Positions 8,351 to 43,275 of a stretch of 64,000 bases of DNA are shown piece after piece. This DNA is from Cupriavidus sp. D39 (lineage in GTDB: Bacteria; Pseudomonadota; Gammaproteobacteria; Burkholderiales; Burkholderiaceae). The notes beneath the pieces were generated by a model. That model was not told where the DNA came from. It saw only the letters and a list, made by a program, of their open reading frames with translations, and did no database searches. Where the stretch lies: assembly GCF_026627925.1 (NCBI RefSeq), contig NZ_JAPNLE010000001.1:496001-560000 (forward strand), read 5' to 3'. Numbering within the stretch: position 1 is the stretch's first letter; each line of letters begins with the position of its first letter. The position numbers were made by a program, and so were the translations under genes.

Positions 8351-8386
8351 GACTGTGTCCTTGTGGTTGCATGCGCGTTGTGGTGT

Positions 8387-9810: not shown

Positions 9811-9894
9811 TGAAACTCGAATCGGAATAAAGAAGTGTCCACACCGGCTGCGGACTGCGCACACAGGGTGCGGGCGCAGTCCGCGCGGTTGGCG

Positions 9895-10692: not shown

Positions 10693-10790
10693 AGCTTCAT
10701 TTCCTCAACGGTTTTTGCTGCGTGGGGCGCTACCGCTCACGCTGACGGAGTGGGCATGCGGCTGGCGCTCGATCAGGGCGTCGACGATCA

Positions 10791-22824: not shown

Positions 22825-23766
22825 ATGTCATCCTCCCTTCAGGTCCGGCGCGCAGCCGCGGGACTCGTCAAGACCCATAATTTCTCTCCCAAAGCAATCA
22901 TTAGCACGATATTTGGCGACATGATCGTGCCCCACGGCGGTTCGGTGTGGCTCGGCAGCCTGGTCGAAGCGGCGAAACAGTTCGACATCAAGGAGGCGCA
23001 CGCTCGTACCTCAATCCTGCGTCTGGGCTATGAGGGATGGCTGCACGGCGTGCGCGTCGGCAAGCTCAGCTATTACGGGATGACCGAGGACAGCCTGCGC
23101 GACTATGTGACGTCCGTCTATGGCACGCCGAACGACTCGTGGAGCGGCGAGTGGTTCATCCTCTTCACCGGAACCGCCGATATACCGAAGCCGGTCTACG
23201 CGAAGCTGCGACAGGCGCTGGTCTGGGAAGGCGTCGGCCAACTGGCGCCGCACGTCTTCGTCAGCCCGTCGCCGGACATCAATCGGGTAACCAGGATCCT
23301 GGATGAGTTCGGCCTGACGGAGCGGATTCAGATCCTCAAGGCCCATCCTCTGGAGGGCAAGGACCCCGACCAGATCCGCAAGATGGTCCGGGTCGCCTGG
23401 GCTATTGCCGATATCGAGCGCAAATACTATACGTTCCTGGAGCGGTACCGACCGGTCAAGCAGACCCTCGACCGCAATGAGGACGCGCTCGACCCGGAGT
23501 CCAGCTTCGTGATCCGGATCCTGCTGATCCTCGAGTATCGGCTGATCGCATTGCGCGACCCGCACCTGCCATCGACGCTGCTGCCGGCTTCCTGGTCCGG
23601 TCATGCCGCATTTACGCTTTGCAAGACCCTGTACCAGCAGGTGCTACCCGGATCGGAAGCCTACCTCGCGAGCATCGTGCGCACGCTGGACGGCCCCTTC
23701 AAGCCCGCGGGACCGATGTTGTGGAGCCGCTTCGGCGGACTATCCGAGGTCGCGATCCCGGCCTGA
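22825..23766 (+). CDS. PaaX-family transcriptional regulator
   Basis: 313 residues. N-terminal PaaX winged helix (SPKAIISTIFGDMIVPHGGS; VWLGSLVEAAKQFDIKEAHA; RTSILRLGYEGWLHGVRVGK), middle domain (WSGEWFILFTGTADIPKPVY; LRQALVWEGVGQLAPHVFVS), and the PaaX C-terminal domain (FVIRILLILEYRLIALRDPH; LPSTLLPASWSGHAAFTLCK). PaaX represses phenylacetyl-CoA catabolic genes and is relieved by phenylacetyl-CoA. It is convergent with the epoxidase operon that ends at 23859, so it probably senses a CoA ester of that pathway. Confidence 0.93.
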   Translation: MSSSLQVRRAAAGLVKTHNFSPKAIISTIFGDMIVPHGGSVWLGSLVEAAKQFDIKEAHARTSILRLGYEGWLHGVRVGKLSYYGMTEDSLRDYVTSVYGTPNDSWSGEWFILFTGTADIPKPVYAKLRQALVWEGVGQLAPHVFVSPSPDINRVTRILDEFGLTERIQILKAHPLEGKDPDQIRKMVRVAWAIADIERKYYTFLERYRPVKQTLDRNEDALDPESSFVIRILLILEYRLIALRDPHLPSTLLPASWSGHAAFTLCKTLYQQVLPGSEAYLASIVRTLDGPFKPAGPMLWSRFGGLSEVAIPA

Positions 23767-23858: not shown

Positions 23859-25262
23859 TCAGCGCGTGGCGATCGAGCCGACCGCCAGTTGCTCGGACCC
23901 GGCCAGCTTGCGACGCGCCCTGTCCGGTCCCGCCTTGTCGAGCTCGGCCTGGTCGATCCGCTTCCAGCCCGCGAAGTCGACCCAGCGCAGTCCGCGCGAC
24001 CTGAGCAGCGGCTCGATGCCCGACGGCACGGAACCATCGCCGGCCGCCGATAGCGACACCTCCGCGCACGCCTTGGCAACCACCGCATGCGAATCGATCC
24101 GGTTGGTGCCGATCGCTCCCGACGGACCACGCTTGGCCCATCCGACCACGTACAGGCGCTCCCTGAGCTTGCCATCGCGATGGTGCAATACGCCACCCGA
24201 GGCGCCCAGTCCGAAGCGATCATGAAAATCGTAGCCGACGCAGGTCACAACCAGGTCGGCCGGCAGCGTCAACTCGCGCAAGCGGCCCGCATCGCTTTCC
24301 CGTTGTGCGGACCTCGATACGAAGCGAACCGCGCCCACCCGGTCCGGCGCATCGGCCGCGGGCAGGAAGGCAACCGGTTCGAGGTCGAAGCACAGCCGGA
24401 CCGCCCGCCTCGGTTCGATCGGCTGACCAGCGGCTTCGATGGCATCGGAGACCGGCAACGCCAGAATCTCCTGCAGCAAGGCAGTTGTCGCTTCCCCGCC
24501 GTCGAACCCGGTCTGCCTGGCAGCCGGATCCAGTGTGATCCGGCCAGACGCCAGGCGCGCGAGTTCGCGAAACTCGTGCAGCGAAAACTTTGCGTACCCG
24601 GGGCTGCGCCTACCCACGACATTGACCGCGTCGATCGGCGCGTTCGATAGCGCATCGGCGACGACCGGCGACAAATCCGATCCGGCATACCCGTCCCGGC
24701 GTTTGACGAGCTGCCGCGTGACATCGAGCGCCACATTGCCGGCACCGATCACCACGACCTGCCTGGTTCGCGCGAGCAGTCCGGATGCATCGAGCGCCTC
24801 CGGATGGTCGTTGTACCAGCTCGCAAACGCCCCGGAACCCAACACCCCGGGCAAGTCCTCGCCAGCCACGCCGAGTTTGCGGTCGCGGTTGACGCCGGTG
24901 GCCAGGATCACGCCATCGTAGTGCGCCATCAGCTCGTCGAGAGACACGTCGCGGCCAACGCAAACGCTGCCGAAGTAGTGCACCCGTTCGTTCGCCAGAA
25001 ATCGTTCAAGCGTGCGCACCACGGCCTTGGTCCCCTGGTGGTCGGGCGCCACGCCATATCGGATCAGACCGAAGGGCGTCGGCAACCGCTCAATCACGTC
25101 GACCAGCGCCAGCGGATCCTGGCGCAACAGCGCCTCGACCGCATAGCATCCGGACGCGCCGCTGCCCACCACGGCGAACCGACGCGTCGATCGCTTGATT
25201 GGGGTGCAGGCTACGGCGTCCGGAGACGCCTCGTTTGGCACGCTAGTGGCATCCTGCATCAT
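23859..25262 (-). CDS. FAD/NAD(P)-dependent ferredoxin reductase (adrenodoxin reductase-like)
   Basis: About 467 residues from ATG 25262 (or the next codon, ATG 25259). FAD motif RFAVVGSGASGCYAVEALLR, PTPFGLIRYGVAPDHQGTKA, GVILATGVNRDRKLGVAGED, NADP fold VVVIGAGNVALDVTRQLVKR, and C-terminal VVGWAKRGPSGAIGTNRIDS, the FprA/adrenodoxin-reductase signature. It should move electrons from NAD(P)H to a ferredoxin or flavodoxin, here probably to feed the di-iron oxygenase at 27247. Its start overlaps the epoxide hydrolase stop, the fourth gene of a tightly coupled operon. Confidence 0.92.
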   Translation of the reverse strand: MMQDATSVPNEASPDAVACTPIKRSTRRFAVVGSGASGCYAVEALLRQDPLALVDVIERLPTPFGLIRYGVAPDHQGTKAVVRTLERFLANERVHYFGSVCVGRDVSLDELMAHYDGVILATGVNRDRKLGVAGEDLPGVLGSGAFASWYNDHPEALDASGLLARTRQVVVIGAGNVALDVTRQLVKRRDGYAGSDLSPVVADALSNAPIDAVNVVGRRSPGYAKFSLHEFRELARLASGRITLDPAARQTGFDGGEATTALLQEILALPVSDAIEAAGQPIEPRRAVRLCFDLEPVAFLPAADAPDRVGAVRFVSRSAQRESDAGRLRELTLPADLVVTCVGYDFHDRFGLGASGGVLHHRDGKLRERLYVVGWAKRGPSGAIGTNRIDSHAVVAKACAEVSLSAAGDGSVPSGIEPLLRSRGLRWVDFAGWKRIDQAELDKAGPDRARRKLAGSEQLAVGSIATR

Positions 25263-26469
25263 AATGCGAAGTCCGCATGTCGGTAGCAGGCGCGCAGGCT
25301 GTCGACGAACTCGCGGGGCTTGAGCAGCGCCGGAAAGTGACCACCGTCGGCGAAGTCTTGTCGAAATCGCAGGTTGTGGCCGCGCTCCACCCATCGCGTG
25401 GGCGGCGCGGGAAAAACCCTTTGCCAAAGAATGAACAACCGGTCGGGACCTCACAGCGTTGGCCTGGGGCAAGTTCGTGGCGGCCATGGCGATCCGCGTA
25501 GTAGATCCAGCTGGCGGTAGGCAAGCTGCGTGAGAACCAGTACAGGCTTGCGAAAGTGAGCATCGTGTCTCGCGAATGCCTTGGCAGGTCGCCGGTGGAA
25601 GACCCGCACCAGCCGTGATACTTGTCGACCAGCCATGCGGCAAGGAATGCAGGCGAGTCCGCCAGGCCGAATCCGAGGGTCGTCGGCCTAGTGGCCTGCG
25701 TCTCGCGATATCCGCCATCGCGCGCCAATCGCTTCTGGATGTCCGCAATCCAGTGCTTCTCGTCGCCATCCAGGGGCTGCGCCGGAACCACGGCGGGACG
25801 CAATCCAAGCATGCTCAGGTGGAGCCCGGTCAAAACCTGCGGCGCATCGACGGCGAGCCAGCTCGAGACAACCGCGCCCCAGTCGCCGCCATGCGCGAAG
25901 AAGCGGTCGCAGCCGAAACTCTCGACCATCATCGTGCGCAAGCCCACGGCGATCTCCCTGGCGTGCAGAGGCTGCAGCGGCGGATCGGAGAAGCCAAAGC
26001 CCGGCAGCGACGGCACGATCACGGTGGCCCCATCCTGCTCCCGTCCACCCGAGCGCTCTGGATGCGCGATCGCGTCAATGACGCCGAAGAACTCGAACGG
26101 AAGGCTGGGCCAGCCATGCGACAGCACGATCGGCGGCAAGTCGGGATTGGAGCCGACTTCCACGGTCACGTGAATGCGCAGGGTCGAACCATCGGGAAAC
26201 GGGACCGGCACCAGGAACTGGGCGAATCGATTCAGATGCGCCTCGGCGGCCCGCCAGTCGTAGCCGTTGGCCCACCACTGCGTCAGCTCCCGTAGATAAG
26301 CCACGGGCGGGCCGTAGCGCCAGTCGGCCCGCCCCGGTTCGATCGGCATCGGCGTGGCCCGCAGTCGGCGCTGCAGGTCATGGAGCGCGTCGTCGCCAAT
26401 GTTGACGCGGAATGGTTCGGCATCGCGCGGCGGAAGGACCAGGCGCGGCCTGGCTCCGGCGCTAGCCAT
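25259..26469 (-). CDS. Epoxide hydrolase (alpha/beta-hydrolase, EHN family), frameshifted near 3' end
   Basis: About 403 residues from ATG 26469. EHN N-terminal domain (FRVNIGDDALHDLQRRLRAT; YLRELTQWWANGYDWRAAEA), oxyanion/HGWP motif PPIVLSHGWPSLPFEFFGVI, PSLPGFGFSDPPLQPL, nucleophile-elbow region FAHGGDWGAVVSSWLAVDAP with Asp, and the C-terminal His in FADGGHFPALLKPREFVDSL. That last part needs a one-base correction near 25413-25421. It hydrolyses an epoxide to a diol. It overlaps the upstream crotonase and downstream reductase genes, which ties epoxide opening to the epoxidase. Confidence 0.9.
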
Positions 26470-27247
26470 GACGGAACACCGGCTTGCGCTTCTCGGCGAA
26501 CGCGCGCATCGCTTCCTTCTGATCGTCCAGCGCGAACGTCGCATGCAACATGCGCCGCTCGAAATGCAAGCCCTCGCGCAGCGGGGTCTCGAAGGCGGCC
26601 TGGATCGACTCCTTGATCATCAGGACGATCGGCCGGGAAAAGTCGCCGATGCGCCGCCCGACTTCCATCGCGCGCGCGAGGTGCTCTCCACGTCCGACGA
26701 CTAGCGAGACGATGCCGATCCGTTCCGCCTCGGTGGCGTCGATGATCCGCCCCGTCAGGCACAATTCCATCGCCTTCGCCTTGCCGATCGAGCGCGCCAG
26801 ACGCTGTGTGCCACCGCCCCCGGGAATCGTCCCGACGGCCACTTCAGGCTGTCCGAAACGGGCCGTCTCGTCGGCGATCACGATGTCGCACATCAGCGCG
26901 AACTCGCAACCGCCGCCCAGCGCATTGCCCGCGACCGCCGCGATCACCGGCTTGCGGCACGCGTTAATCGCATCCCAGTCGCGCGACACGAAGTCTTCGA
27001 GATAGGCGCCGGCAAACGTCTTCTCGGTCATCTCCTTGATGTCGGCACCGGCGCAGAACATGTCAGGCCCGCCGGTGAGAATGATCGCGCCTACCGCCGG
27101 GTCGGCCTCGAAGCCGCGCACCACCGCGACGAGCTCGGCGATGAGCTGGCGGTTCAGCGCATTGCGTGCCAGCGGGCGGTTCAGCGTGGCAATCCCCACG
27201 CCATCTCGCACCTCGCGCAGTACGGTCGTCATTGTCGGGTGCTCCAT
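26462..27247 (-). CDS. Enoyl-CoA hydratase (PaaF-like crotonase)
   Basis: 261 residues from ATG 27247, which overlaps the stop of the di-iron oxygenase (TGATG). GVGIATLNRPLARNALNRQL, oxyanion motif GGPDMFCAGADIKEMTEKTF, AGNALGGGCEFALMCDIVIA with the first catalytic Glu, FGQPEVAVGTIPGGGGTQRL with the second Glu region. Both glutamates support true hydratase activity, as in PaaF and classical crotonases. It probably hydrates a 2,3-unsaturated CoA thioester downstream of ring or chain opening. Confidence 0.93.
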   Translation of the reverse strand: MEHPTMTTVLREVRDGVGIATLNRPLARNALNRQLIAELVAVVRGFEADPAVGAIILTGGPDMFCAGADIKEMTEKTFAGAYLEDFVSRDWDAINACRKPVIAAVAGNALGGGCEFALMCDIVIADETARFGQPEVAVGTIPGGGGTQRLARSIGKAKAMELCLTGRIIDATEAERIGIVSLVVGRGEHLARAMEVGRRIGDFSRPIVLMIKESIQAAFETPLREGLHFERRMLHATFALDDQKEAMRAFAEKRKPVFRHG

Positions 27248-28062
27248 CAAACCACCATCCGGGACTCGAGTTCGGCGTCATCCATCGCATAGCCCATGCG
27301 CATGTCGTAGTCGGGCTCGACGCCGTCGACCCATTCCAGGCCGCTGTCCTTGAGCCGCGTGCGCAGCAACTCCAGGTACTGCGCCTGGGCCTCCTCCGGG
27401 CGCATGATCTTCAGGCCCATCTCGTAGTAGCGATCGAAATTCTGCGACTGCGAGTCACCGCTCAGGCTGGGACGGCCATACATGCCCATCCCCATCGCCA
27501 TGAACTTCGGCACACGACGCTGCAGTCGATCGCGGGCCTTTTCGCCGCCGAACTCGATGCATCGTTTCACCCCCCACAGGCCGAATCCCATGTGGCCCAC
27601 CTCCTCGCGCGCGATCCGCTCGGAGACGCGAGCCCACGGCAGATACGAGCAATTCTGGTACTGCCCCAGGAAGATCACGGCGGCAGGTGTGGTTGCGCAG
27701 GACATCATGACGACGTCCTCCCAGCACTGGAACTGATCCTTCCAGAACCCGCGGCGAAAGCCATTGATGATGTTGACCTTTTTCGGGTCCGGGTTGTCAG
27801 GGTTGTCACGCAGTTCCTCGAGGCGCGCCTTGACGTCGACACCCAGCTCTTCGAGCAGCGTCCAAAGGTAGAAGGCGTGGCCGTACTCCTCCATCGTCTT
27901 CTTTGCCAGGCGATACGCCTCTTCCGGTCGCGGGGCGAACTGCATGTTCTCTCCGACGCGTTGCGCGCCAGCGTACTCGGAGTCGGCCTGAAAGCTTAGC
28001 AAATGAATCAACGCCCGCTTGTAGTCGTCAGGCAGCGAGTCACCCTTTTCGTAGCACTTCAT
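27247..28062 (-). CDS. PaaA/BoxB-like di-iron CoA-thioester epoxidase subunit
   Basis: 271 residues from ATG 28062, preceded by GGAG six bases upstream; a TTG start at 28152 would lie inside AT-rich promoter-like DNA. Family PF05138 (phenylacetic acid catabolic) is recognised from SLPDDYKRALIHLLSFQADS, the ligand motif KTMEEYGHAFYLWTLLEELG (ExxH) and the second ligand motif AREEVGHMGFGLWGVKRC (ExxH). Such enzymes epoxidise aromatic CoA thioesters with O2. Unlike PaaABCDE or BoxAB, no PaaB/C/D/E or BoxA gene is present here; reductase, flavodoxin and epoxide hydrolase are the neighbours. The substrate is unknown. Confidence 0.85.
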   Translation of the reverse strand: MKCYEKGDSLPDDYKRALIHLLSFQADSEYAGAQRVGENMQFAPRPEEAYRLAKKTMEEYGHAFYLWTLLEELGVDVKARLEELRDNPDNPDPKKVNIINGFRRGFWKDQFQCWEDVVMMSCATTPAAVIFLGQYQNCSYLPWARVSERIAREEVGHMGFGLWGVKRCIEFGGEKARDRLQRRVPKFMAMGMGMYGRPSLSGDSQSQNFDRYYEMGLKIMRPEEAQAQYLELLRTRLKDSGLEWVDGVEPDYDMRMGYAMDDAELESRMVV

Positions 28063-28191
28063 CGTCAGCTCCAGTGATGGTCGAATACGGTTGCGCTGGC
28101 CGTTCTCGGCCTGCTCTGTTCCCAAGATATGATACCTTTTAATATTCGTCAATCATATTTTTGTATTACATATAACGACGTCAGCACGTGA
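28063..28191 (-). promoter_or_regulatory. AT-rich promoter region of the epoxidase operon
   Basis: 129 bases between DUF2889 and the oxygenase gene, sharply AT-rich compared with flanks. The plus strand reads AATATTCGTCAATCATATTT then TTGTATTACA at 28141-28170. Part of this (TATTC, TCAAxCA, ATTTGTnTTA order) recurs at 35716-35744 and partly in three other intergenic gaps of the cluster, so a shared operator is suspected. Confidence 0.5.
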
Positions 28192-28730
28192 TCAATCGAC
28201 CGGCTTCTGGAACCAGCGCGGGAAGAACTGCCGTACCGCCTCGCCGTCGGATCCCAATCCGCGACACCTGTCCAGGGGCGGTGGGCGCTGCGTTTGCGTT
28301 CCATCGTCGCGAACCGGATAAATCACACCGGCGAAAGACTGGATCGCCAGCGTCGGCAGCATCAGCGCCATATCCGACAGGTGACTGCATCCCTGCCTTG
28401 ATCCAATCCTCTCCCTGAGGCGCGCCCGAAATCCGTCAAAAAGGTTCAAGCCGACCAGCAACGCGTAGTCATCGGCGGCGGCCTGGCAGGAGCCGTCGAA
28501 GGGAACCGCCTTCATGTCGGCTGTGGCGGCGGTGACGCATCCCTGCGTGTCCACCGTGAGCACAAAGGTCAGTTGTGAATCGGCGTTCCCGCGGGATGAT
28601 CCCGGGCACCACCCGCAAATACCTGCGTCTTGCGATCGCTGAGCGAAACCTCCAGATCCCACAGGCCGTCATCGCGCATGAACGCCGCCAGCTCAACCTG
28701 GCGCAGGTGCATCAGTTGTCGTGCGACCAT
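28192..28730 (-). CDS. DUF2889-family protein, frameshifted
   Basis: About 179 residues from ATG 28730. First frame: MVARQLMHLRQVELAAFMRD, DGLWDLEVSLSDRKTQVFAG, PAGTPIHN; it stops at once, and the next frame continues LTFVLTVDTQGCVTAATADM and ends LDRCRGLGSDGEAVRQFFPR. One missing C near 28582 explains the break. The order (DGLWD, G-PIH, DRC-L-dG-eVV-FPrw) is that of DUF2889, whose function is unknown although members occur near aromatic-acid gene clusters. It lies upstream of the oxygenase on the same strand and divergent from the flavodoxin. Confidence 0.75.
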
Positions 28731-28835
28731 CGTCACATCCCCTCCGCCGCCGGTTTTCCCGGCAATGATTCTTGCACTACAAACGAATGTTCTCTTATCA
28801 TAGATTTGTCTTTCGACTACACAAGAGGATTTGAC

Positions 28836-29303
28836 TTGGATTCCGCCCTGATTCTGTTTGGCACCCAATCCGGCAATGCGGCGATGGTCGCGGAGACGAT
28901 CAAGTCGGCGTTGGAACGCGCGGGCGTCCGGTGCGAACTCGCCCCCGAGAATGGCACGGAGCCTGACCTCATCGCGCGCCAGCAATGGCTGCTGGTTTGT
29001 TGTTCGACCCACGGCGATGGCGACGTACCCGACCACATGCTGCCGCTGATCGACGCGATCGGGCGCGCGTGCCCGGACCTGTCGTCGCTTCGCTACGGCG
29101 TGATTGCACTGGGAGACCGCACGTACAGCGATACCTTCTGTTTCGGCGGCAAGCGTATCGACAGCCTGCTCCGGGACCGGGGCGCGCAGCGCGTCGGCGA
29201 ACGGTTGGAAGTCGATGCCTCCACCCAGCCGTTCGCCGACGAAGTCGCCTTGGCATGGCTTCAGGGGTGGATCGAACAAGCGCGAAAGTCGGTCCTCGCT
29301 TGA
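28836..29303 (+). CDS. Flavodoxin-domain protein
   Basis: 155 residues from TTG 28836, chosen because AAGAGGA at 28823-28829 is well placed and the fold begins immediately. FMN phosphate loop LILFGTQSGNAAMVAETIKS, WLLVCCSTHGDGDVPDHMLP (loop over the flavin), RYGVIALGDRTYSDTFCFGG. This is a MioC/CysJ-type flavodoxin module standing alone. It probably shuttles electrons from the reductase at 23859 to the oxygenase at 27247; that link is inference from position. It shares an AT-rich divergent gap with DUF2889. Confidence 0.88.
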   Translation: MDSALILFGTQSGNAAMVAETIKSALERAGVRCELAPENGTEPDLIARQQWLLVCCSTHGDGDVPDHMLPLIDAIGRACPDLSSLRYGVIALGDRTYSDTFCFGGKRIDSLLRDRGAQRVGERLEVDASTQPFADEVALAWLQGWIEQARKSVLA

Positions 29304-29374: not shown

Positions 29375-30148
29375 CTATCGCGCGTCGATCCGCATGTCGT
29401 CGGCGCCGATGTAGATGCGGTTCCAGGTGGGCCCGATCAGCACCTCGCCAATGCACGCCCGGCGCGGTGCGACAACTACATAGCGGATCAGATCGCCGAG
29501 ATCCTCCGGCTGTAGCATCTTCGCAAGGTCCTCGGCCGATGGTGGTACTGGCCGGGTCATCAATATTGGTGTCGCGACCTCGCCTGGCATGATCAGCGTT
29601 GCGCAGATTCCGTTACGTCCCTCTTCGCAGTTGAGCGATTCGGTGAGCGGCGACAGCGCGCACTTGGCCGCGCCGTAGGCCATGCCGGCAATGGGCAGGA
29701 ACTCGCGCCCGGCCCAAGATGAAACGATCACGATCTTCCCGTCATGCTGCGCCCGCATGCCCGGTAGCACCGCATGCGTGCAATGGACGACGCCATTCAG
29801 GTTCACGCCCACGACCTTGTTGTAATCGTCGAGGGTGAGGTCCTTCCAGAAGCGCCCGGGAACGTTCAGGCCGGCCGAGCACACGAGGATCGACACCACC
29901 CCGATCGACTCGGCGATAGCGCTCGCGGCCTTCGCCACCGCGGCGCAATCGCTGACATCGAGCGGCAGGCTCGATGCTGCCAGGCCTTCGGCGGCGAATT
30001 CGCTGACCGCCTTGTCCAACTCGCCAGCCCTGCGGCCGGAGAGGACTACGTGCGCACCCTCCCTGGCCAGCGCCCGGGCGGCCTCGCGGCCGATGCCGGA
30101 GCCACCCCCGGTCACCCAGGCAACCTTGCCCGCAAGTTGATTCGACAT
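29375..30148 (-). CDS. Short-chain dehydrogenase/reductase
   Basis: 257 residues, classical SDR. NAD(P) motif AWVTGGGSGIGREAARALAR, VLVCSAGLNVPGRFWKDLTL region with the NNAG-equivalent SAG, catalytic Ser in KIVIVSSWAGREFLPIAG, and YxxxK as AYGAAKCAL. Arg in LSGRRAGELD after strand 2 suggests NADP(H) preference. It oxidises or reduces a hydroxyl/keto intermediate. Last gene of the minus-strand Liv transport group (64-base gap from livF), so it probably belongs to the same pathway. Confidence 0.92.
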   Translation of the reverse strand: MSNQLAGKVAWVTGGGSGIGREAARALAREGAHVVLSGRRAGELDKAVSEFAAEGLAASSLPLDVSDCAAVAKAASAIAESIGVVSILVCSAGLNVPGRFWKDLTLDDYNKVVGVNLNGVVHCTHAVLPGMRAQHDGKIVIVSSWAGREFLPIAGMAYGAAKCALSPLTESLNCEEGRNGICATLIMPGEVATPILMTRPVPPSAEDLAKMLQPEDLGDLIRYVVVAPRRACIGEVLIGPTWNRIYIGADDMRIDAR

Positions 30149-30211: not shown

Positions 30212-30919
30212 TCAGCGGCCCAGGTACGCTTCCCGAACCCTTGGGTCGGCGGCAAGAGTGCTGGCCGCTCCTTCCAGCGTGATCGTACCCGTCTCCATCA
30301 CATAGGCCCGGTCGGCTAGCCCGAGCGCGGCATTGGCGTTCTGTTCGACCAGCAAGATTGTCATCCCGTCCCGCTTTAGCTCGCGCAGCGTCGCAAAGAT
30401 CTGTGCGACGATCAGTGGAGCCAGCCCCATGCTCGGCTCATCCAGCAGCAGGAGTTTCGGACGTGACATCAGGGCACGTCCGATCGCCAGCATCTGCTGC
30501 TGTCCGCCGGACAGTTCGCCGGCGCGCAATTGGCGCATCTGCTCAAGGACCGGAAATGCGTCGTAGACCCAACGCAAGCTGGTCGCATATGACCCGTTCT
30601 TCCTGCCTCCACTCCAGGCCCCGAGTTGCAGGTTTTCCTCCACGGAAAGCGGACCAAAGATCTGCCGCCCCTCCGGTACCTGCGCAATACCGAGCCCCAC
30701 GCGGCGGAAGGCCGGAATACCGGACAGGCGCTCGCCACGGAACCAGTACTCGCCCGAAGAGATCGGCTGCACCCCGGAAATGGCGCGCATCAACGTGGTC
30801 TTTCCGGCGCCGTTCGCACCGATCACGACCACGACTTCGCCTTCCGCGATCTCCATCGAGATGCCATGCAGTACTTCAATCCTGCCGTAGCAGGAACGGA
30901 CGTCACGCACCGACAGCAC
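30212..30919 (-). CDS. livF: Branched-chain-type ABC transporter ATPase LivF
   Basis: 235 residues. Walker A VVVIGANGAGKTTLMRAISG, signature AGELSGGQQQMLAIGRALMS, Walker B LLLLDEPSMGLAPLIVAQIF, LLVEQNANAALGLADRAYVM: the LivF wording. It powers uptake by the LivHM permease. Its start overlaps the 3' end of livG by 17 bases. In this cluster the importer more likely carries the pathway carboxylate than an amino acid. Confidence 0.95.
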   Translation of the reverse strand: MLSVRDVRSCYGRIEVLHGISMEIAEGEVVVVIGANGAGKTTLMRAISGVQPISSGEYWFRGERLSGIPAFRRVGLGIAQVPEGRQIFGPLSVEENLQLGAWSGGRKNGSYATSLRWVYDAFPVLEQMRQLRAGELSGGQQQMLAIGRALMSRPKLLLLDEPSMGLAPLIVAQIFATLRELKRDGMTILLVEQNANAALGLADRAYVMETGTITLEGAASTLAADPRVREAYLGR

Positions 30920-31688
30920 TTAGTTCTCCTTGTGTCTGTTCCGTGCCCAGATATGCCTCAATTACGGCAGGATCGCTCTGGACTTCCACGGCGCACCCTT
31001 CGCTGAGCTTGCGGCCGTAATTCAATACGACGATGCGGTCAGATATTTTCATCACCAGGCGAATATCATGCTCGACCAGGATCACTGACACGCCCGTGCC
31101 CGCGATGTACTGGATGATCTCGTCGATCTCCTCGGTCTCGCGCGGATTGCAACCCGCCGCCGGTTCGTCCAGCAGCAATACGGAGGGATCCACCGCCAGC
31201 GCCCGCGCAATTTCCAGCCGCTTCAGCGCACCGTACGGCATCGAGCCCGCCGGCTGATCGGCATACCTGCCAAGCCCGATATGCTCGAGCAAGATCATCG
31301 CGCGCTCGCGGGTGGCAGTGTTCTGCCGCGATACCGAGGGTAGGCCCAGGAGGTGAGCCATAACGCTGCGCCGTTCGTGCACGTGGTGGCCGACCATCAC
31401 GTTCTCGACAGCCGTCATCTGGAAGAAAATCTGCAAGTTCTGAAAGGTGCGGGACAGGCCGCGCCTCGCCAACTCGTGCGGTGCCAATCCGGTGACGTCA
31501 TCGCCGCCCAGCATCACGGTTCCGGCCTTGGGCCGATAGACGCCGGAAATAAGGTTGAACAGCGTCGTCTTTCCCGCCCCGTTGGGGCCGATGACCGACA
31601 GGATCTTGCCGCGGGCCGACTTGAACGATACGGCGTCCAATGCGCGCACACCGCCGAATTCGATGCCAAGATTGTTGACTTCAAGCAT
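30903..31688 (-). CDS. livG: Branched-chain-type ABC transporter ATPase LivG
   Basis: 261 residues from ATG 31688 (MLEVNNLGIEFGGVRALDAV); an upstream in-frame extension is Arg/Cys-rich and is rejected. Walker A LSVIGPNGAGKTTLFNLISG, YRPKAGTVMLGGDDVTGLAP, signature PYGALKRLEIARALAVDPSV, Walker B LLLDEPAAGCNPRETEEIDE (Cys where Leu is usual). It pairs with LivF at the LivHM permease. It overlaps livF. Confidence 0.94.
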   Translation of the reverse strand: MLEVNNLGIEFGGVRALDAVSFKSARGKILSVIGPNGAGKTTLFNLISGVYRPKAGTVMLGGDDVTGLAPHELARRGLSRTFQNLQIFFQMTAVENVMVGHHVHERRSVMAHLLGLPSVSRQNTATRERAMILLEHIGLGRYADQPAGSMPYGALKRLEIARALAVDPSVLLLDEPAAGCNPRETEEIDEIIQYIAGTGVSVILVEHDIRLVMKISDRIVVLNYGRKLSEGCAVEVQSDPAVIEAYLGTEQTQGELSAVGA

Positions 31689-31692
31689 GCCC

Positions 31693-32648
31693 TCACCCGC
31701 CCTTTCGCAGGGCCGCCTGCAGCGTCGGCACAATGCCCGACCGAAGAAAGATCATGGACAGGATCAGCACCCCACCCAGGAACGCGTGCTCATAGTCGTG
31801 CAACACGGTCAGGAACTGGGGGAGGATCAACAGCAGCGCCGCACCCACGACCGCCCCCAGGACCGATCCCATCCCGCCAAGGACCACCATCGTCACCAAC
31901 TGGAGCGAGACCAGGAAGTCGCTGACCCCAGGCGTGATGTGCCCGTTCATCAGCGCGAGCATCGCCCTGCCGCAGCCGCGTAGACCGCCGACAATACGAA
32001 GGCCACCAGCTTGTAGCGCGCCACGTCGACCCCGGCCACCGACGCCGCGATCTCGCTGCCGTGAATGGCCCGTAGGGCCCGCCCCGTCGGACTGCGCTCA
32101 AGATTCACCGCCAGCATGGCACCCAGCACCAGCACCCCACCCGCAACCCAGTACCAGGCCTGTGGACTCCTAAGCTGCCAGCCGAACGCGCCAAGACGCT
32201 GAACCGACATGCCGTCCGGCCCGCCAGTCCATTGAACCTCATTGACCAGGACAATGGAGACGAGGATGCCGAACCCGAGCGTCGCGGCCGCCAGGTAATG
32301 CCCCTTCAGCCGAAGAATCGGGCGGCCGATCACAAACGCCAGCAAGCCCGCGAGCAGCAGCCCGCCGACCAGACTGGCTCCGGAGGGGACGCCCAGGCGC
32401 GCCGGTCCCAGCGCGACCGCATAGGCGCCAATCCCTACGAACCCGCCATGACCCAGGCTCACCACCCCGGCGTAACCCATCAGGATGTTCAGGCCGATGA
32501 CGGCCAATGCAAAGACCCACGCGATCGCAAGAACTCGGTAGTGATAGTCAGAGGCAAGCACGAACGGCAGCATGGCAATGATCGATGCAAGGACGATTGC
32601 CTCACGGCGAGAGCCTGCACGGCTGCGCAAAGAATCAAACACGTTCAT
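31693..32648 (-). CDS. livM: Branched-chain-type ABC transporter permease LivM, frameshifted
   Basis: About 318 residues from ATG 32648. Hydrophobic throughout; family motif LMGYAGVVSLGHGGFVGIGA. The first frame ends SAVYAAAAGRCSR; the next resumes MLALMNGHITPGVSDFLVSL and QLVTMVVLGGMGSVLGAVVG, GAALLLILPQFL. One base missing from the CCC run at 31965-31967 explains it. Inner-membrane permease subunit with LivH; its start overlaps the livH stop by 14 bases. Confidence 0.9.
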
Positions 32649-33507
32649 GGCCCCCCTTTCCCAACAGCCCGCTGGGGAAGGCGAACAGCACCAGCACGAT
32701 GATCAGGAACGCCGAGGCGTCCTTGTACTGGGAGGACAGGTAACCGGCGGCCAGCGCCTCGGTGAGGCCGACCAGCAGGCCCCCGATGACGGCGCCGAGC
32801 GGGCTGCCCATGCCGCCGAGGATGGCAGCCGCGAAGCCTTTGAGAGCGAGCATCGCGCCCATGTCATAGCTGACCAGGGTAATCGGCGCGATCAGGATTC
32901 CCGATAACGCACCAATCCCCGCCGACATCGCAAAGCTGAATCGGGCGATCGATCGGACGTTGATGCCGACCAGTTGCGCTGCCATGCCATTGGCGGCTGT
33001 AGCGACTATAGCGCGGCCGAGCATCGTGCGTTGCGCCAGCACGAACAGCCCAGCGAATATGAGTACGGCGACAACAATCAGCAGCAAGCTCTGGGGTAGG
33101 ATTACCGCGCCGCCGATTCGGATTGGTTCTTCGCCAACCAGCCCCGGGAGGGACTTGGGAGCGGCTCCGAACGCAACCTTTGCGAGGCCACGGATCAGGA
33201 TAGACGCCCCGATCGTGATGATGATCAACACGAAGATCGGGGCGCCGCGTGCGGGCCGCATTGCGAGATCGTAGAGCAGCAGGCTGATGACGCATGTGGC
33301 GACAATGGCCAGCAGGCCGGCCAGAGCGAACGGGAGCCCATAGGAGATCCCCAGCGCTGACAGCATGCCGCCCAGCATGACGAACTCGCCCTGGGCGAAG
33401 TTCACGACCTCGGAGGCGTTGTAGATCATGGTGAATCCCAGGGCCACGACGCCATAGATGGCGCCGATGGTGATCCCGGCAAACACGAACTGCAGGAGTT
33501 CGGACAT
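32635..33507 (-). CDS. livH: Branched-chain-type ABC transporter permease LivH
   Basis: 290 residues, multi-spanning. MSELLQFVFAGITIGAIYGV, VALGFTMIYNASEVVNFAQG, EFVMLGGMLSALGISYGLPF and KGFAAAILGGMGSPLGAVIG, GGLLVGLTEALAAGYLSSQY are classical LivH motifs. It follows the binding-protein gene by 35 bases and overlaps livM, as expected for one operon. Confidence 0.95.
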   Translation of the reverse strand: MSELLQFVFAGITIGAIYGVVALGFTMIYNASEVVNFAQGEFVMLGGMLSALGISYGLPFALAGLLAIVATCVISLLLYDLAMRPARGAPIFVLIIITIGASILIRGLAKVAFGAAPKSLPGLVGEEPIRIGGAVILPQSLLLIVVAVLIFAGLFVLAQRTMLGRAIVATAANGMAAQLVGINVRSIARFSFAMSAGIGALSGILIAPITLVSYDMGAMLALKGFAAAILGGMGSPLGAVIGGLLVGLTEALAAGYLSSQYKDASAFLIIVLVLFAFPSGLLGKGGHERV

Positions 33508-33542
33508 GGTTTTTAGCTCGTGGGAGAGGATGCGGTGGCGGC

Positions 33543-34690
33543 TTACTTGGCGATCACCCAGCCACCATTGCGTATATCGACCATGTAGAGCGAGCGGTCG
33601 TCGATACCCAGATGATCGTCCTTGCTCATGTTGAAGACCCCGGTGACGCCGACATAGCCCTTGGTCCTTTCCAGTGCATCGCGGATGGCTTTGGGATCAG
33701 CGGTGTTGGCCTTCTTGATCGCATCGACCAACAGCATCAAAGCATCATGGGCATAGCCGCCAAAGGTAGAGGCTTCGCCCCCCGTGATCGCGCGAATGGT
33801 CCCGGTGTAATCGAGCGCGACCTTCTTCACCGGTTCGCTGTCAGGCAGCTTGTCGGCAATCACCAGCAGTGGCGAGGTCACACGCACGCCATCGGAGGCA
33901 CTTCCTGCGAGCTTGATGAAGGCCGAAGACGCTGCGCCGTGCGCCTGGTACAGCGGAACCGTCATGCCGAGTTGACCATAATTGCGTGTCACTACCGCCA
34001 GCGCCTGGCCGAAACCGCCAACCAGCAGCGCATCGACACCGGATCGGTTCTTGATCTTCGTCAGCTGCGGCGTCATGTCGCTGTCAGTTGGATTGAAGGT
34101 TTCGTCCACCACGATGGATATGCCGTTGGCTTTGGCGGCGATCGAGCACTCGTTGCGTAGCGTCTTGCCCGCTCCGTCGGTGCCATTGATCATGGCAATC
34201 CGCTTGAAGCCGTGCGCCTTCAGGTCCGCTATCTGCTTGCGGCAAACCATCCGGTCGGTATGCGGTGTCTTGTAGACGTAGGCGCGAGGGGTTCGACGAT
34301 CTCGATTCCGGCTGCCAGGGACACCAGCGGAATCCTCGCGTCCTCGAAGACTTGGGCGACGGCCAGCGTGATGCCGGTAGTGCTCGGGCCGATGGCAGCC
34401 ACCACTTTGTCGGAGTCAACCAGGCGGGAAGCGAATGTGCGTGCCGTGTTGGCGTCGGTCGCATCGTCATACATGATCAGTTCGATGGGCCGGCCCAGCA
34501 CGCCGCCGGCCTCATTGATCTTCTTCACATAGTGCCGCAGCGTGATGTCCTGCGGCTCGCCGAGAAACGAAGCCGCCCCGGTCTTGGAGATGATCGCGCC
34601 AATCCTGATCGGCTCCGCAGCCATCGCCCACCCAGCGCCGAGGGTCGCCGCTGCCACTGCCGCCAGTGCAAATCTCTTGATGCATTTCAT
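33543..34690 (-). CDS. Liv-type ABC transporter substrate-binding protein, frameshifted
   Basis: About 382 residues from ATG 34690. Signal peptide MKCIKRFALAAVAAATLGAG with cleavage after WAMA. Mature start EPIRIGAIISKTGAASFLGE; ELIMYDDATDANTARTFASR. The frame breaks after GIEIVEP; the next frame continues AYVYKTPHTDRMVCRKQIAD, FKRIAMINGTDGAGKTLRNE and VGGFGQALAVVTRNYGQLGM. One base missing from the G-run at 34288-34291 joins them. Periplasmic receptor for LivHMGF; such receptors often bind aromatic or other carboxylates in catabolic clusters. Confidence 0.9.
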
Positions 34691-34892: not shown

Positions 34893-35666
34893 TCAGCGCC
34901 CGCGAAAGACCGGTTTTCGCTTGGCATTGAAGGCGGACACGCCTTCGCGGTAATCGTCGGTGCGCGCGAGTTCACCCTGGAGTTCCGCCTCCGCCTCCAA
35001 CACCTGATCCAGGCTCATGGTCTCGGCCCGCCGCAGCAGCGCCTTCTGCTGCAGGAACGCCAGGGTGGGCCCATCAGCGCAGGTTTGCGCGAGCGCCATG
35101 GCCTTAAACTGGAGGTCGGCGTCGGGCCAGCACCGGTCCGCCAGACCGATGGCGGCGGCGGTCTGGCCATCGATCGCCTCGGCGCCATAGATCATCTCCA
35201 GCGCGCGCCCTTGGGAGATGCGGCTGCGCAGCAGGAAATGGCCTCCGCAATCCAGCGCTGCGCCGAGGCGGGCGAAAGGGACGGCGAAGCGGGCCGATTG
35301 CGCGGCGTAAACCACGTCGCACGCGAGCGCCAACCCTAGCCCGAACCCCATCGTTGCGCCATTGACCGCAGCGATTGTTGGCTTGCGGCATGCATGCACG
35401 CCCGCGATCACCGGATTCATCTGTTCGGCAAGGATCGCGCGGGCATCCTCGTCACCCGTCGCGCCAGAGAGATCGCGGCCGGCACAGAACCCGCGTCCTG
35501 ACGCGGTAATGAGTAGGCAGCGAACCCCGTCATCGCTCGAAGCATCTGCCACTGCCGCGCCGATCGCCTCGGTCATCCGTGGGGTCACCGCATTGAGCTT
35601 CTCAGGCCGGTCCAGTCGAATCTCCATGACTGCGTCGTGCCGCTGAATTAGTATCCCGTTGTCCAC
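34893..35666 (-). CDS. Crotonase-family protein, PaaG-like (enoyl-CoA/epoxy-CoA isomerase type)
   Basis: 257 residues. MDNGILIQRHDAVMEIRLDR, oxyanion motif ASGRGFCAGRDLSGATGDED, VNGATMGFGLGLALACDVVY, then RLGAALDCGGHFLLRSRISQ, where Asp precedes GG as in PaaG (D-x-GG) instead of the hydratase Glu. PaaG isomerises ring-1,2-epoxy-phenylacetyl-CoA to the oxepin and also shifts double bonds. A PaaG-like function would suit the PaaA-like oxygenase, but an epoxide hydrolase is also encoded, so the route may differ. Confidence 0.85.
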   Translation of the reverse strand: MDNGILIQRHDAVMEIRLDRPEKLNAVTPRMTEAIGAAVADASSDDGVRCLLITASGRGFCAGRDLSGATGDEDARAILAEQMNPVIAGVHACRKPTIAAVNGATMGFGLGLALACDVVYAAQSARFAVPFARLGAALDCGGHFLLRSRISQGRALEMIYGAEAIDGQTAAAIGLADRCWPDADLQFKAMALAQTCADGPTLAFLQQKALLRRAETMSLDQVLEAEAELQGELARTDDYREGVSAFNAKRKPVFRGR

Positions 35667-35755: not shown

Positions 35756-36184
35756 ATGACTAATGGAACGATGCCCTCCGAGAACGAAACCGGTCGCCGC
35801 ACGGCGCTGGAGCGATTTGGCTACGGACGGCTCGAAGTGAAGGTTTCCGACGAGGAACTGGAACGCGAATGGGCGCTGCTGTTGCCGGACTTTTCCAGTC
35901 CGGCGGCGCCGGCTACCCGGCTGGCCGCACTGGCGCCGCATCTGCGCAAACTGGCGGCGGAACATGTCCGGCAGCGGCGGGCGGCCGATCGGCTGATGCT
36001 CCAATGCGACGAGGCGCACGCTAGGATCGCCACCGAGGGCGCGCGACCCGAGCTTGTCGAAGCCTATGCTGTGGTGCGCGACAGCTTCGAGCAAGCCGTC
36101 GAAGACTTTGCCGCGCACCGCGAGTTGCTGGCGAAAGTATTCAGCTCTTCAAAGCCAGAAAGCGATCGCGTTCGGCCCGCTTGA
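35756..36184 (+). CDS. Hypothetical helical protein
   Basis: 142 residues from ATG 35756 with TTGGAGAC as ribosome-binding region. Unrecognised; mostly charged helix (VSDEELEREWALLLPDFSSP; LAALAPHLRKLAAEHVRQRR; AYAVVRDSFEQAVEDFAAHR), no membrane segment or signal peptide. It is the only plus-strand gene in this part and its 3' end overlaps the 3' end of the AMP ligase by 44 bases. It shares an AT-rich divergent gap with the PaaG-like gene, so co-regulation with the cluster is likely. Confidence 0.6.
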   Translation: MTNGTMPSENETGRRTALERFGYGRLEVKVSDEELEREWALLLPDFSSPAAPATRLAALAPHLRKLAAEHVRQRRAADRLMLQCDEAHARIATEGARPELVEAYAVVRDSFEQAVEDFAAHRELLAKVFSSSKPESDRVRPA

Positions 36185-37667
36185 GGATCTTTCCCGTCCC
36201 GCCGCGGATCAACGCGTCGCGCATCTCGATCGACTTGGGCACCTTGTATTTCGCCAGACGCTCGCGTGCCCAAGCTCGCAGTTCCTCCGTGAGCCCGTCT
36301 TGAGAGTCGCGCAGGACCACGGCGGCGTGGACGGCTTCGCCCCAGTGTGGATCCGGCACGCCGAACACACAGACTTCGAGGACAGCCGGATGCGCAGCGA
36401 TGACGTTCTCGACCTCGATCGGATAGACGTTGTAGCCGCCTGAGATGATCATGAACTGCTTGCGATCTACCAGGTACAGATAGCCATTCTGATCCATCTT
36501 CCCCATGTCTCCCGTCATCAGCCAGCCATTTCTCTTGGCTACCGCAGTCAGTTCCGGCTCGTTCAGATAGCCTTGCATTACGTACCCCCTGCACGGCGAC
36601 CTCACCGATCTCTTCCGGCTCACAGGGGGTGCCGTCAGTCCGCTGCACCTGGACTCGCGAATGCTGCATCGGGAGCCCGCAAGACTCCAGAATCCTCGGA
36701 TTGGTTGTCAGCGCTAGCGAATGGTCCTCCGGGCTGAGCGTCGTGAAAAAGCCGCCGCAGGCCTCGGTTGCGCCATACAATTGCTCGAACGAGGCATTCG
36801 GGAAGGTCGCCGCCGCTCGCCGGATCAGCGCCGGCGGAGTGGGCGCGGAGCCATAGGTAATGCGCCGGACGCTCTGAAGATCGCGTGTGCGCTTCTTTTG
36901 CTCCTCGCAGCAGGCGTTTAGCATCGTCGGCACAAACAGGACCCGGGTGACCCGGTTGGCATCCATCAGATCGAGGGCATAGCCGGGTTCGAAGGCCGGC
37001 ATCACCACCGTGGTGAATCCCTTGGCAACGTTCCACACCGCCAGCAGGCACGGCGTGCCCGCGCCGGGAAAGCAATGGAGCCAGACATCGTCCCTGCGGA
37101 AATCCAGATCGAGCAGCGAATGGCCGATCGAATAGTTGATCGCCTCGTGGGACCAGATCGCGGCCTTCGGCCTTCCGGTCGATCCCGTCGTATAGCAATA
37201 CTGCGCAATCCCATGGTACACGTCGGTCACCGGCGCGCCGGCATGCCGCTCGATCAGCTCGCCATAATCGCCGAATGCCGTCTGCGCATCGCCGGCGCCG
37301 ATCACACGGAGGCCATCGATGGTCGGGGCCAGCGAACGATGCTCATCTTGGACGAACAGCATGCGGGCTCCGCAATGCCGCAAGAGCGTATCGATTTCGC
37401 CGGCCGCCATGCGGTAGTTCACACCGACCCGGATTGCACCGATGCGCGCGGCCGCGTAGATCAGTTCGGTAAGCACCGGACCATCCTTGCTCAGATTCGC
37501 AACGGGGTCTCCTGGGCGAATACCAGGGATACCATCCCGGCAGCCAGCGCGTCGACGCGGCGATCGACCTCCGACCATGTATGAGACAAGCCTGCATATA
37601 CGTAGGCCGTCTTGTCCGGCCAGCGGCGTGCCGCGTTGCGCAACATGTCCGAGATGGTTACTTCCAT
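36141..37667 (-). CDS. AMP-dependent acyl-CoA ligase, two frameshifts
   Basis: About 508 residues from ATG 37667 (MEVTISDMLRNAARRWPDKT). Motifs: IRPGDPVANLSKDGPVLTEL, P-loop YCYTTGSTGRPKAAIWSHEA, FEQLYGATEACGGFFTTLSP, GWLMTGDMGKMDQNGYLYLV, RKQFMIISGGYNVYPIEVEN and the adenylation Lys in GGTGKILKRAERDR. Breaks near 37523 (one base short) and in the C-run 36585-36589 (one base long) are corrected to join frames. It activates a carboxylic acid to its CoA thioester, the expected entry step for the epoxidase pathway. Confidence 0.88.
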
Positions 37668-42081: not shown

Positions 42082-43275
42082 TCATGGGCGCTGCGCGTCG
42101 TTCCGGCTGGTCAGGAACCACGTGCGCAGCTCACCCACGCCTTTGGCTGCAATCGTGCCACGCTCCTCGAACAAGAATGGCTCCGCGAGGTACTGCCGGG
42201 TGGCCTCCGTAATCTGCACGCGACCGGCCACGCCATGGGACTCCATACGGCTGGCGATATTGACGGCGTCGCCCCACAAGTCATAGATGAACTTGCGCTT
42301 GCCGACGACGCCGGCCACCACCGCACCACTGTTGATGCCAACACGCAACTGCAAGCTGTAGCCGCTGCGCGCATTGAAGCCGGCCAGCGCGTCGATCATG
42401 TCCAGCGCCATGTGCGCCGCCCGTGCTGCGTGATCGGCCGCCGCGACCGGCAGCCCTGCGGCAGCCATGTAGGCATCGCCGATGGTCTTGATCTTCTCGA
42501 GGCCGCGATGGTCGGCAATGCTGTCGAAGTCGGTGAAGATCTCATCGAGCACCGCCACCAGCCGCTCGGGGTTCATGCCGGCAGAAAAGCGGGTGAATTC
42601 AACGATGTCGGCGAACAATACAGTTGCCGCCTGAAAACTGTCGGCAATCACTCCGGGGTGCGCCTTCAGGCGCTCGGCAATCGGGTAGGGCAGCACGTTG
42701 AGCAGCAACCGCTCCGACACCTGCTGCTCCGCGACGATCTTGTCGTACAGCTCCTTAAGCTCGTCTCTCTGATGGCGGATCAGCTCGCGGCTGGTCTCCA
42801 GCGCCTGTTCGGCTTGCCGGCGCTCGACGATCTCCTGCTGCAGCTGCGCGTTTTGCGCCTCCAGCCGCTGTTGCATCGCATGCAGGTTCAAGTGCGTGCC
42901 GACCCGCGCCATCACTTCGTCGATCTGCAGCGGTTTGGTGACATAGTCGACCCCGCCCGCCTTGAACGCAGTGATCTTGTGCTCGGTCTCGGTCAGCGAG
43001 GTCATGAAAATCACCGGGATCTTTCGGGTGCTTGCCAGCGCCTTCAAGCGGCGGCAGACTTCAAAGCCGTCCAGTCCCGGCATCATCACGTCGAGCAGGA
43101 TCAGGTCCGGCTGTACAAAGTCGGCGCGTTGCAGCCCTTCTTCGCCGTCCTGCGCGACGACGATCCGAAAGCCGTGGTCCTCAAGACTTTCCACGATCAC
43201 GTCCAGGTTGGCTGGCGTGTCATCCACAATCAGGATCGTGTGGGTGCCCGTTTCCTGTGCCGAGGTCGCCGTCAT
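42082..43275 (-). CDS. Response regulator with class III adenylate/guanylate cyclase domain
   Basis: 397 residues. REC domain (TILIVDDTPANLDVIVESLE; DLILLDVMMPGLDGFEVCRR with the phospho-Asp; VDYVTKPLQIDEVMARVGTH), coiled coil (~125-180; EAQNAQLQQEIVERRQAEQA), then a class III cyclase (ATVLFADIVEFTRFSAGMNP with the metal Asp; EKIKTIGDAYMAAAGLPVAA; VAGVVGKRKFIYDLWGDAVN; ASRMESHGVAGRVQITEATR). It makes cAMP or cGMP when phosphorylated, presumably by the hybrid kinase whose stop overlaps its start (ATGA). Confidence 0.93.
   Translation of the reverse strand: MTATSAQETGTHTILIVDDTPANLDVIVESLEDHGFRIVVAQDGEEGLQRADFVQPDLILLDVMMPGLDGFEVCRRLKALASTRKIPVIFMTSLTETEHKITAFKAGGVDYVTKPLQIDEVMARVGTHLNLHAMQQRLEAQNAQLQQEIVERRQAEQALETSRELIRHQRDELKELYDKIVAEQQVSERLLLNVLPYPIAERLKAHPGVIADSFQAATVLFADIVEFTRFSAGMNPERLVAVLDEIFTDFDSIADHRGLEKIKTIGDAYMAAAGLPVAAADHAARAAHMALDMIDALAGFNARSGYSLQLRVGINSGAVVAGVVGKRKFIYDLWGDAVNIASRMESHGVAGRVQITEATRQYLAEPFLFEERGTIAAKGVGELRTWFLTSRNDAQRP

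Follow-up and report, generated by a model that had tools for sequence, protein, structure and literature searches.

Introduction

Two ring epoxidases that act on coenzyme A (CoA) esters are known from aerobic degradation. The phenylacetyl-CoA 1,2-epoxidase PaaABCE requires PaaA, PaaB, PaaC and PaaE (passages of PMC4498308), and in the benzoyl-CoA 2,3-epoxidase BoxAB, according to passages of PMC5489048, BoxB holds its di-iron centre through Glu120, Glu150, His153, Asp211, Glu240 and His243 and forms a hydrogen bond to benzoyl-CoA through Gln116. The present study concerns a gene module in a 64,000-nucleotide stretch of Cupriavidus sp. D39 (assembly GCF_026627925.1, contig NZ_JAPNLE010000001.1, positions 496,001 to 560,000 of the forward strand; hereafter the window), which is built around a PF05138 di-iron oxygenase (Oxy) accompanied by an enoyl-CoA hydratase (ECH), an EHN-family epoxide hydrolase (EHN), a reductase (Red) and a flavodoxin (Fld). 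The cluster of a divergent di-iron oxygenase, its own electron-transfer proteins and an epoxide hydrolase suggests an undescribed attack on CoA-bound ring compounds.

The module resembles PaaABCE in the PaaA fold of Oxy, the six iron ligands, the lysine corresponding to PaaA Lys68, and the PaaX-type regulator and crotonases nearby. However, Oxy falls outside the PaaA clade, neither PaaB nor a PaaC-like second PF05138 protein was found in the window genome, nor was PaaZ over its cut-off, and the flavodoxin and FprA-type reductase alongside Oxy, as well as the EHN hydrolase, are additional to the known system. With BoxAB it shares an oxygenase related to a di-iron acyl-CoA epoxidase and a Gln at the position of BoxB Gln116, whereas Oxy has 271 amino acids against 471 in BoxB and gave no match to the BoxB model TIGR03225 at 1e-3. 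A preliminary description of the window had listed PaaE/BoxA and PaaZ/BoxC as absent. Genome-wide searches yielded neither PaaZ nor PaaN2 over cut-off, no PaaB and no further member of PF05138, while the absence of PaaE from the module genes examined, and of BoxA and BoxC from the flanking genes examined, was noted among neighbouring genes only, no genome-wide search for these three having been made. The window EHN protein and its homologue at locus L026 (L and G number the loci and genomes analysed) match the family of known epoxide hydrolases (PDB 4i19 and 1qo7; microsomal and juvenile-hormone types), from which they differ in their genetic linkage with a di-iron oxygenase and with acyl-CoA enzymes.

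Results

Family, ligands and phylogeny of Oxy

The assignment of Oxy to PF05138, made in the preliminary description with two ExxH motifs, was confirmed with 74.6 bits (cut-off 28.5). The open reading frame (ORF) spans 28152-27247 (301 amino acids), and because relatives begin at MKCYEKGD, the gene itself was placed at 28062-27247 (271 amino acids), the longer ORF being a start-codon extension. All six di-iron ligand positions, assigned by matching to the ligands of BoxB, are complete in Oxy (E29, E59, H62, D116, E154 and H157) and were kept in the alignment by 51/51 rows of the Oxy clade and 12/12 PaaA rows; the column of the Asp ligand held Ser in 3/3 BoxB rows, which is taken as an alignment slip. 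Position 25, equivalent to BoxB Gln116, was Gln in 51/51 Oxy and 3/3 BoxB rows and His in 11/12 PaaA rows. PaaA Lys68 was conserved in 51/51 Oxy rows, and PaaA Glu49, which belongs to the lysine bridge, was replaced by Val in all of them. Among NCBIfam models, Oxy scored 64.6 bits against PaaA TIGR02156 (cut-off 280) and 29.8 bits against PaaC (cut-off 133).

A tree of 92 rows was built from 51 of 76 Oxy rows, 14 of 19 rows of a second PF05138 subunit described below, 12 of 23 PaaA, 12 of 23 PaaC and 3 of 4 BoxB loci, by a quick search in which the program flagged long branches. Each group stood on one side of a branch, with Shimodaira–Hasegawa-like approximate likelihood ratio test (SH-aLRT) values of 99 for Oxy, 96 for the second subunit, 99 for PaaA, 99 for PaaC and 100 for BoxB, and the joining order among the groups was unsettled (SH-aLRT 44 for the join of Oxy and PaaA). 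Judged by these sequences, Oxy is neither PaaA nor BoxB but belongs to a separate clade, which contained 51/51 of the sampled Oxy rows. Neither observation named in the preliminary description as refuting, a place within true PaaA or BoxB with partners encoded nearby or an incomplete ligand set, was made.

In a structure search with the AlphaFold model of Oxy (mean predicted local distance difference test score 84), the best matches were the PaaA chains of PaaAC structures (3pw8_C, 22% identity, template modelling score 0.70), followed by a Sulfolobus relative, PaaC and BoxB. Further down the list, at E-values above 1e-3, stood aldehyde-deformylating oxygenases and VlmB. This sharing of the fold with other ferritin-like oxygenases, together with the Val in place of Glu49, is what would be expected if Oxy were another kind of di-iron oxygenase (hydroxylase or desaturase) with a CoA ester or a free acid as its substrate, the hydrolase having been recruited for a different step. 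However, both sequence and fold place the two known ring epoxidases nearest to Oxy, and an epoxide hydrolase is linked to Oxy at all seven closest loci (see below); we consider a non-epoxidase improbable.

An offshoot of the Oxy clade linked to an epoxide hydrolase

The preliminary description had proposed a translationally coupled four-gene operon with PaaX next door. The coupling stood: on the minus strand, a TGATG (27249-27245) joins the Oxy stop to the hydratase start, the hydratase gene shares 8 bases with the EHN gene, and the reductase start (25262) coincides with an ATGATG junction. PaaX was likewise confirmed downstream of the four-gene run, and a MioC-like flavodoxin flanks it upstream, both on the opposite strand. 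The extent did not stand, as the module continues to 37.6 kb with genes for a DUF2889 protein, a short-chain dehydrogenase/reductase (SDR), a Liv transporter, a PaaG-like crotonase, a CoA ligase and a protein of about 140 amino acids (Table 1). Gene order and strands recur on the 9.9-kb contig of a betaproteobacterial metagenome-assembled genome (MAG), L022, as Liv-SDR-Fld-DUF2889-Oxy-ECH-EHN-Red-PaaX, so the arrangement in the window is not due to chance.

A single scan across GTDB genomes identified 72 Oxy loci, of which 7 belong with the window, 43 are other proteobacterial loci and 22 are further loci, the last including L070 although it is labelled Proteobacteria. The window and L022-L028 (the betaproteobacterial MAG, a Rhodoferax MAG, three Phenylobacterium, a Tsuneonella and Cupriavidus UYMMa02A) group together as a single clade (8 rows, SH-aLRT 100), hereafter the offshoot. 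The EHN gene, whose product matched PF06441 with 93 bits and carries the nucleophile motif HGGDWG in frame, has a counterpart at 7/7 of these nearest loci and at 0/65 of the others, so the gene association noticed in the window does recur in other genomes. Oxy and EHN stay linked even though the gene order varies, being Oxy-ECH-EHN-Red in L022 but EHN-Red-Oxy in L026 and L028, and this speaks for a functional coupling of the two. Fld was found at 6/7, Red at 5/7 and PaaX at 6/7 of the offshoot loci, three of which (L022, L023 and L027) are represented by short stretches. The 8 offshoot rows invariably carry six residues that differ in the other rows (T56, M120, C122, I130, M158 and V245), and all except V245 lie on ligand-bearing helices of the AlphaFold model.

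Five offshoot genomes without PaaA were searched for partner proteins, namely the window genome (G000; completeness 97.8%) and the alphaproteobacterial genomes G060, G061, G062 and G064, three of which are isolates; the genomes of L022 and L023 lay outside this search. No second PF05138 protein was found in the window genome, and no second match to the PaaA model, which detects the second subunit elsewhere, in the other four. None of the five yielded PaaB, or PaaZ or PaaN2 over cut-off, the PaaN2 scoring in the window genome covering 27/34 candidates, and the four alphaproteobacterial genomes yielded no PaaK at E 1e-100. Together with the EHN linkage, these absences are consistent with a separate kind of acyl-CoA epoxidation in which the epoxide would be opened by hydrolysis.

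Besides the offshoot module, Cupriavidus UYMMa02A has canonical PaaA in two separate copies, as well as PaaN2, and a match in the PaaA range (26-32% identity) was present in 35/35 same-genus genomes. The window genome has one canonical BoxB as a separate gene on contig C9. The PaaK on C9 stands in a genome without canonical PaaA, and without PaaB, PaaN2 or PaaZ over cut-off. Among offshoot neighbours, HcaE- and HsaD-like genes lie in L024 and a gene resembling HcaD in L026, each of them scoring under the curated cut-off, and FadD-like CoA ligases occur in L024, L026 and L027; these neighbours hint at a ring acid other than phenylacetate, without naming it.

The wider clade and variant phenylacetate clusters

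Around the 43 proteobacterial loci outside the offshoot, several of them short stretches, the protein of about 140 amino acids was found at 42, Red at 38, PaaX at 35, LivH at 13 and Fld at 10. PaaA over cut-off was present in 7/36 searched genomes, and PaaB in the same 7 of 37. Among the 36 were 22 proteobacterial genomes outside the offshoot (G065-G086, G066 being betaproteobacterial), 6 of which hold both systems; the other 16 have neither PaaA nor PaaB over cut-off. All 16 showed at least two PaaA-model matches, revealing a second PF05138 protein, and PaaK and PaaN2 over cut-off were present in 15 and 9 of them, respectively. Single absences are weak here because 12 of the 16 are MAGs without stated completeness; the remaining four genomes come from isolates (Marinobacterium arenosum, two Terasakiella and Roseospira). 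PaaZ (TIGR02278) was dropped as a pathway marker, since canonical PaaA genomes lack it too, and PaaN2 was searched instead.

By coordinates, the second PF05138 gene lies 0.65-1.2 kb from PaaN2 in 15/18 genomes having PaaN2, and within about 6.1 kb of PaaK over cut-off in 17/22 genomes. The second subunit is counted here at 19 loci (7 proteobacterial and 12 others), the counts of the neighbourhood search having been set aside as inflated by cross-matches with Oxy. Eight clusters (L121-L128) were fetched for having PaaK and the second gene on one contig, so that PaaK in 8/8 reflects the choice, as does in part PaaN2 in 7/8 of their genomes. Unselected features were the flavodoxin adjoining the second PF05138 gene in 8/8 and homologues of PaaG, PaaI and PaaJ in 8/8; PaaF was matched in 4/8 and PaaY in 6/8. 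The queries, in bits against cut-off, were PaaK 679/646, PaaG 404/345, PaaJ-type thiolase 712/597, PaaI 140/119, PaaY 332/320 and, as a partial piece under its cut-off, PaaF 278/371. The 19.5-kb cluster of Terasakiella brassicae (L121) contains the end of PaaX, Oxy, the protein of about 140 amino acids, Liv genes, PaaK, PaaJ, PaaI, PaaG, PaaF, the second subunit, Fld and PaaY.

In the second subunit the bridging Glu is replaced by Lys in 14/14 tree rows, in seven aligned fetched copies and, by eye, in the eighth (L126). Of the ligands, Asp116, Glu154 and His157 are kept in 14/14 rows, Glu29 in 9/14 and His62 in 6/14. By analogy with PaaC, this subunit is probably non-catalytic. The wider clade thus looks like a variant PHENYLACETATE system, in which a PaaA-like active subunit, a PaaC-like partner, flavodoxin and an FprA-type reductase would replace PaaABCDE, and the main-form clusters are apparently an undescribed replacement of PaaABCDE. 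The variant clusters, represented by Terasakiella, Novispirillum, Oceanospirillum and a Propionivibrio MAG, resemble the window in the Oxy clade and, in many cases, in Red, PaaX, the protein of about 140 amino acids, Fld and the Liv transporter; they differ in having the second PF05138 protein with Lys for the bridging Glu, PaaK, PaaG, PaaI, PaaJ and often PaaN2, and in that no EHN was found near Oxy.

These clusters bear on the reading that Oxy of the offshoot still epoxidises phenylacetyl-CoA, as the wider clade probably does, and that the hydrolase merely clears leaked reactive epoxide. Phenylacetate genes accompany the wider clade, both as PaaK in the 15 of 16 genomes without PaaA and as homologues of PaaG, PaaI and PaaJ that accompany the second subunit in all eight fetched clusters, and the window retains PaaX and a PaaG-like crotonase in a genome with one PaaK over cut-off. 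On the other hand, the searched offshoot genomes without PaaA lacked a second subunit and PaaZ or PaaN2 over cut-off, four of them yielded no PaaK at E 1e-100 either, the PaaG-like protein of the window scores far under the PaaG cut-off, and Cupriavidus UYMMa02A keeps the offshoot module alongside two canonical PaaA copies. This reading is regarded as rather unlikely.

Under even sampling the clade is rare, occurring in 2/399 genomes of the order and 1/398 of the phylum, with the window genome counted in both. Plasmid records gave only matches below 60% identity; among the 20 matches listed, 11 had a feature name, in every case paaA. The 22 further loci, 17 of them labelled Obscuribacter(ales), Melainabacteria or Cyanobacteria, had a 4Fe-4S ferredoxin-like match in 21/22 and the second subunit in 12/22, and the neighbourhood search found neither Red, Fld nor the protein of about 140 amino acids there. 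L066-L093, mostly Obscuribacterales or Melainabacteria, place the Oxy clade in non-photosynthetic relatives of cyanobacteria, several with a second PF05138 gene and a small 4Fe-4S ferredoxin directly downstream. A metallo-beta-lactamase-fold protein of about 318 amino acids recurs near Oxy (L045, L046, L050, L051, L053, L060, L061, L062, L064 and L068), and a Paenibacillaceae MAG (L086) has two near-identical Oxy copies about 2.2 kb apart in a stretch with Liv transporter and PaaX-like genes.

Frame breaks in the window

The EHN gene, assigned to its family correctly in the preliminary description, is not intact there: relative to L022, the ORF at 25243-26544 is interrupted, and GGHF and the stop at the ATGATG junction lie in a different frame from HGGDWG. 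Both motifs share one frame in the five offshoot copies examined (L022 and L025-L028). In L025 the N-terminal part of the epoxide hydrolase (about 7.6-8.8 kb) is off frame from the rest, and this copy may be frame-broken or mis-started. The EHN frame of Cupriavidus sp. D39 is broken as read, by either assembly error or decay.

EHN, DUF2889, LivM and LivK, and less surely the CoA ligase (27-35% identity to its homologues), each show one frame change relative to intact homologues (positions in Table 1). Five frame-broken genes in one catabolic island could mean that the module of this strain is a decaying remnant in which nothing is functional. However, Oxy, ECH, Red, Fld, SDR, LivF, LivG, LivH and PaaX aligned in a single frame, isolated single indels are also typical of uncorrected long reads, and the hydrolase motifs stand in one frame at the related loci. 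ORF-length statistics of eight other stretches were not decisive, as they did not separate assembly error from decay. We hold a non-functional remnant to be a minor possibility.

Other features of the window

Table 1. Positions of the module genes in the window and the basis of their assignment
Feature	Position	Strand	Basis
Oxy, PF05138 di-iron oxygenase, 271 amino acids	27247..28062	-	profile, ligands, model
ECH, enoyl-CoA hydratase type (PRK05862/PaaF-like)	26462..27247	-	profile matches, under both cut-offs
EHN, microsomal/juvenile-hormone-type epoxide hydrolase	25259..26469	-	HGGDWG present; frame change near 25414, ahead of GGHF; homologue L026
Red, reductase	23859..25262	-	homologue L060 matches FprA/adrenodoxin reductase; start overlaps other-frame EHN stop (ATGATG)
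Fld, MioC-like flavodoxin	28836..29303	+	under MioC cut-off; ORF from 28575; aligned part 28836-29282
PaaX-family repressor	22825..23766	+	TIGR02277 236 bits, cut-off 264.6
DUF2889 protein	28192..28727	-	frame-broken near 28572; 52 + 125 aligned residues in two frames; homologue L046
SDR oxidoreductase	29375..30148	-	homology
LivFGMHK ATP-binding cassette transporter	30212..34690	-	LivM broken near 31965, LivK near 34286
ECH2, PaaG-like crotonase	34893..35666	-	TIGR02280 200 bits, cut-off 345; D of DCGG kept
Conserved helical protein, about 140 amino acids, no Pfam	35756..36184	+	homologues in 42/43 other proteobacterial Oxy loci
AMP-binding CoA ligase	36064..37578	-	probably frame-broken near 36586

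The reductase homologue of L060 matched FprA at E 3e-75 and adrenodoxin reductase at E 1e-73 in PDB. ECH retains both Glu positions of the hydratase class; for these and for the Asp of DCGG in ECH2 we assume the roles usual in crotonases, and the individual Liv gene names are likewise presumed, from homology. A structural search with the model of the protein of about 140 amino acids matched nothing solved (best E 0.25); it and its homologues near Oxy are candidates for an oxygenase subunit or chaperone.

Elsewhere in the window, positions 7538-12530 form a cluster of their own, which encodes two crotonases together with an aldehyde dehydrogenase and an ATP-grasp acyl-CoA synthetase, adjoining a TctC receptor, and at 42082-43275 a response regulator receiver is fused to an adenylate/guanylate cyclase domain, adjoining another receiver gene and a histidine kinase.

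Discussion

The preliminary idea of a distinct CoA-thioester epoxidation route is partly supported; it had missed the wider clade, whose members often occur in genomes, and partly in clusters, for phenylacetate degradation with a second PF05138 subunit. Considering the family of Oxy, its complete ligands, its clade, the gene linkage and the absence of the partners searched for, we infer a CoA-ester substrate other than phenylacetyl-CoA, the path of the electrons, an epoxide product and its hydrolytic opening. A carboxylic acid would be imported by the Liv transporter and converted by the CoA ligase to its CoA thioester, of which Oxy would epoxidise the ring or another C=C bond, with electrons passing from NADPH through the FprA-type reductase and flavodoxin to the di-iron oxygenase. 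EHN would then open the epoxide with water to a vicinal diol-CoA, in contrast to isomerisation by PaaG and cleavage by PaaZ, or cleavage by BoxC, and the hydratase, the PaaG-like crotonase and the SDR may take the diol-CoA on towards beta-oxidation. PaaX may act as a repressor until acyl-CoA builds up. We give even chances to this reading of the module, that is, acyl-CoA epoxidation by a flavodoxin-fed di-iron oxygenase with hydrolytic epoxide opening on a substrate other than phenylacetyl-CoA.

Several points weigh against it. The contrast in EHN occurrence does not amount to 72 independent cases, since the offshoot is one clade with one origin. Red was not found in L023, a short stretch, or in L027, and Fld was not found in L027. 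Homologues of both also occur in the wider clade and are thus uninformative on the substrate of the offshoot. The window genome carries a PaaK over cut-off (G000:C9:3740266-3741522), unlinked to the module, and the EHN frame is broken in the window. Furthermore, hydrolysis plays no part in the handling of the epoxide in the PaaA and BoxB pathways, and the hydrolase might accordingly serve for clean-up.

Taken further, the flavodoxin-driven PF05138 clade may stand beside PaaABCE and BoxAB as a third class among the aerobic ring epoxidases of CoA esters. Its main form, with an active and a degenerate subunit, would replace PaaABCDE in phenylacetate degradation, and the partnerless offshoot, coupled to EHN, would yield a diol-CoA from a different ring acid; we advance this tentatively, with confidence falling somewhat short of even. 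In the open-access literature, no paper on the Oxy clade, the flavodoxin-linked cluster or the EHN offshoot was found by title or abstract, subscription papers lying outside the scope of that search.

A 2026 survey (PMC13186573) uses PaaA and PaaC as markers, kept in all 825 proteomes with PaaK, and its main text makes no mention of BoxB, flavodoxin or cyanobacteria. If the proposal is true, surveys that take PaaA and PaaC, or the shared Pfam architecture, as phenylacetate markers, as this one does, would lump a different enzyme system with PaaABCDE, affecting members of Rhodospirillales, Rhodocyclales, Oceanospirillaceae and others. Flavodoxin as an electron donor and, in the offshoot, water-mediated opening of the epoxide would then join the repertoire of aerobic CoA-dependent ring degradation.

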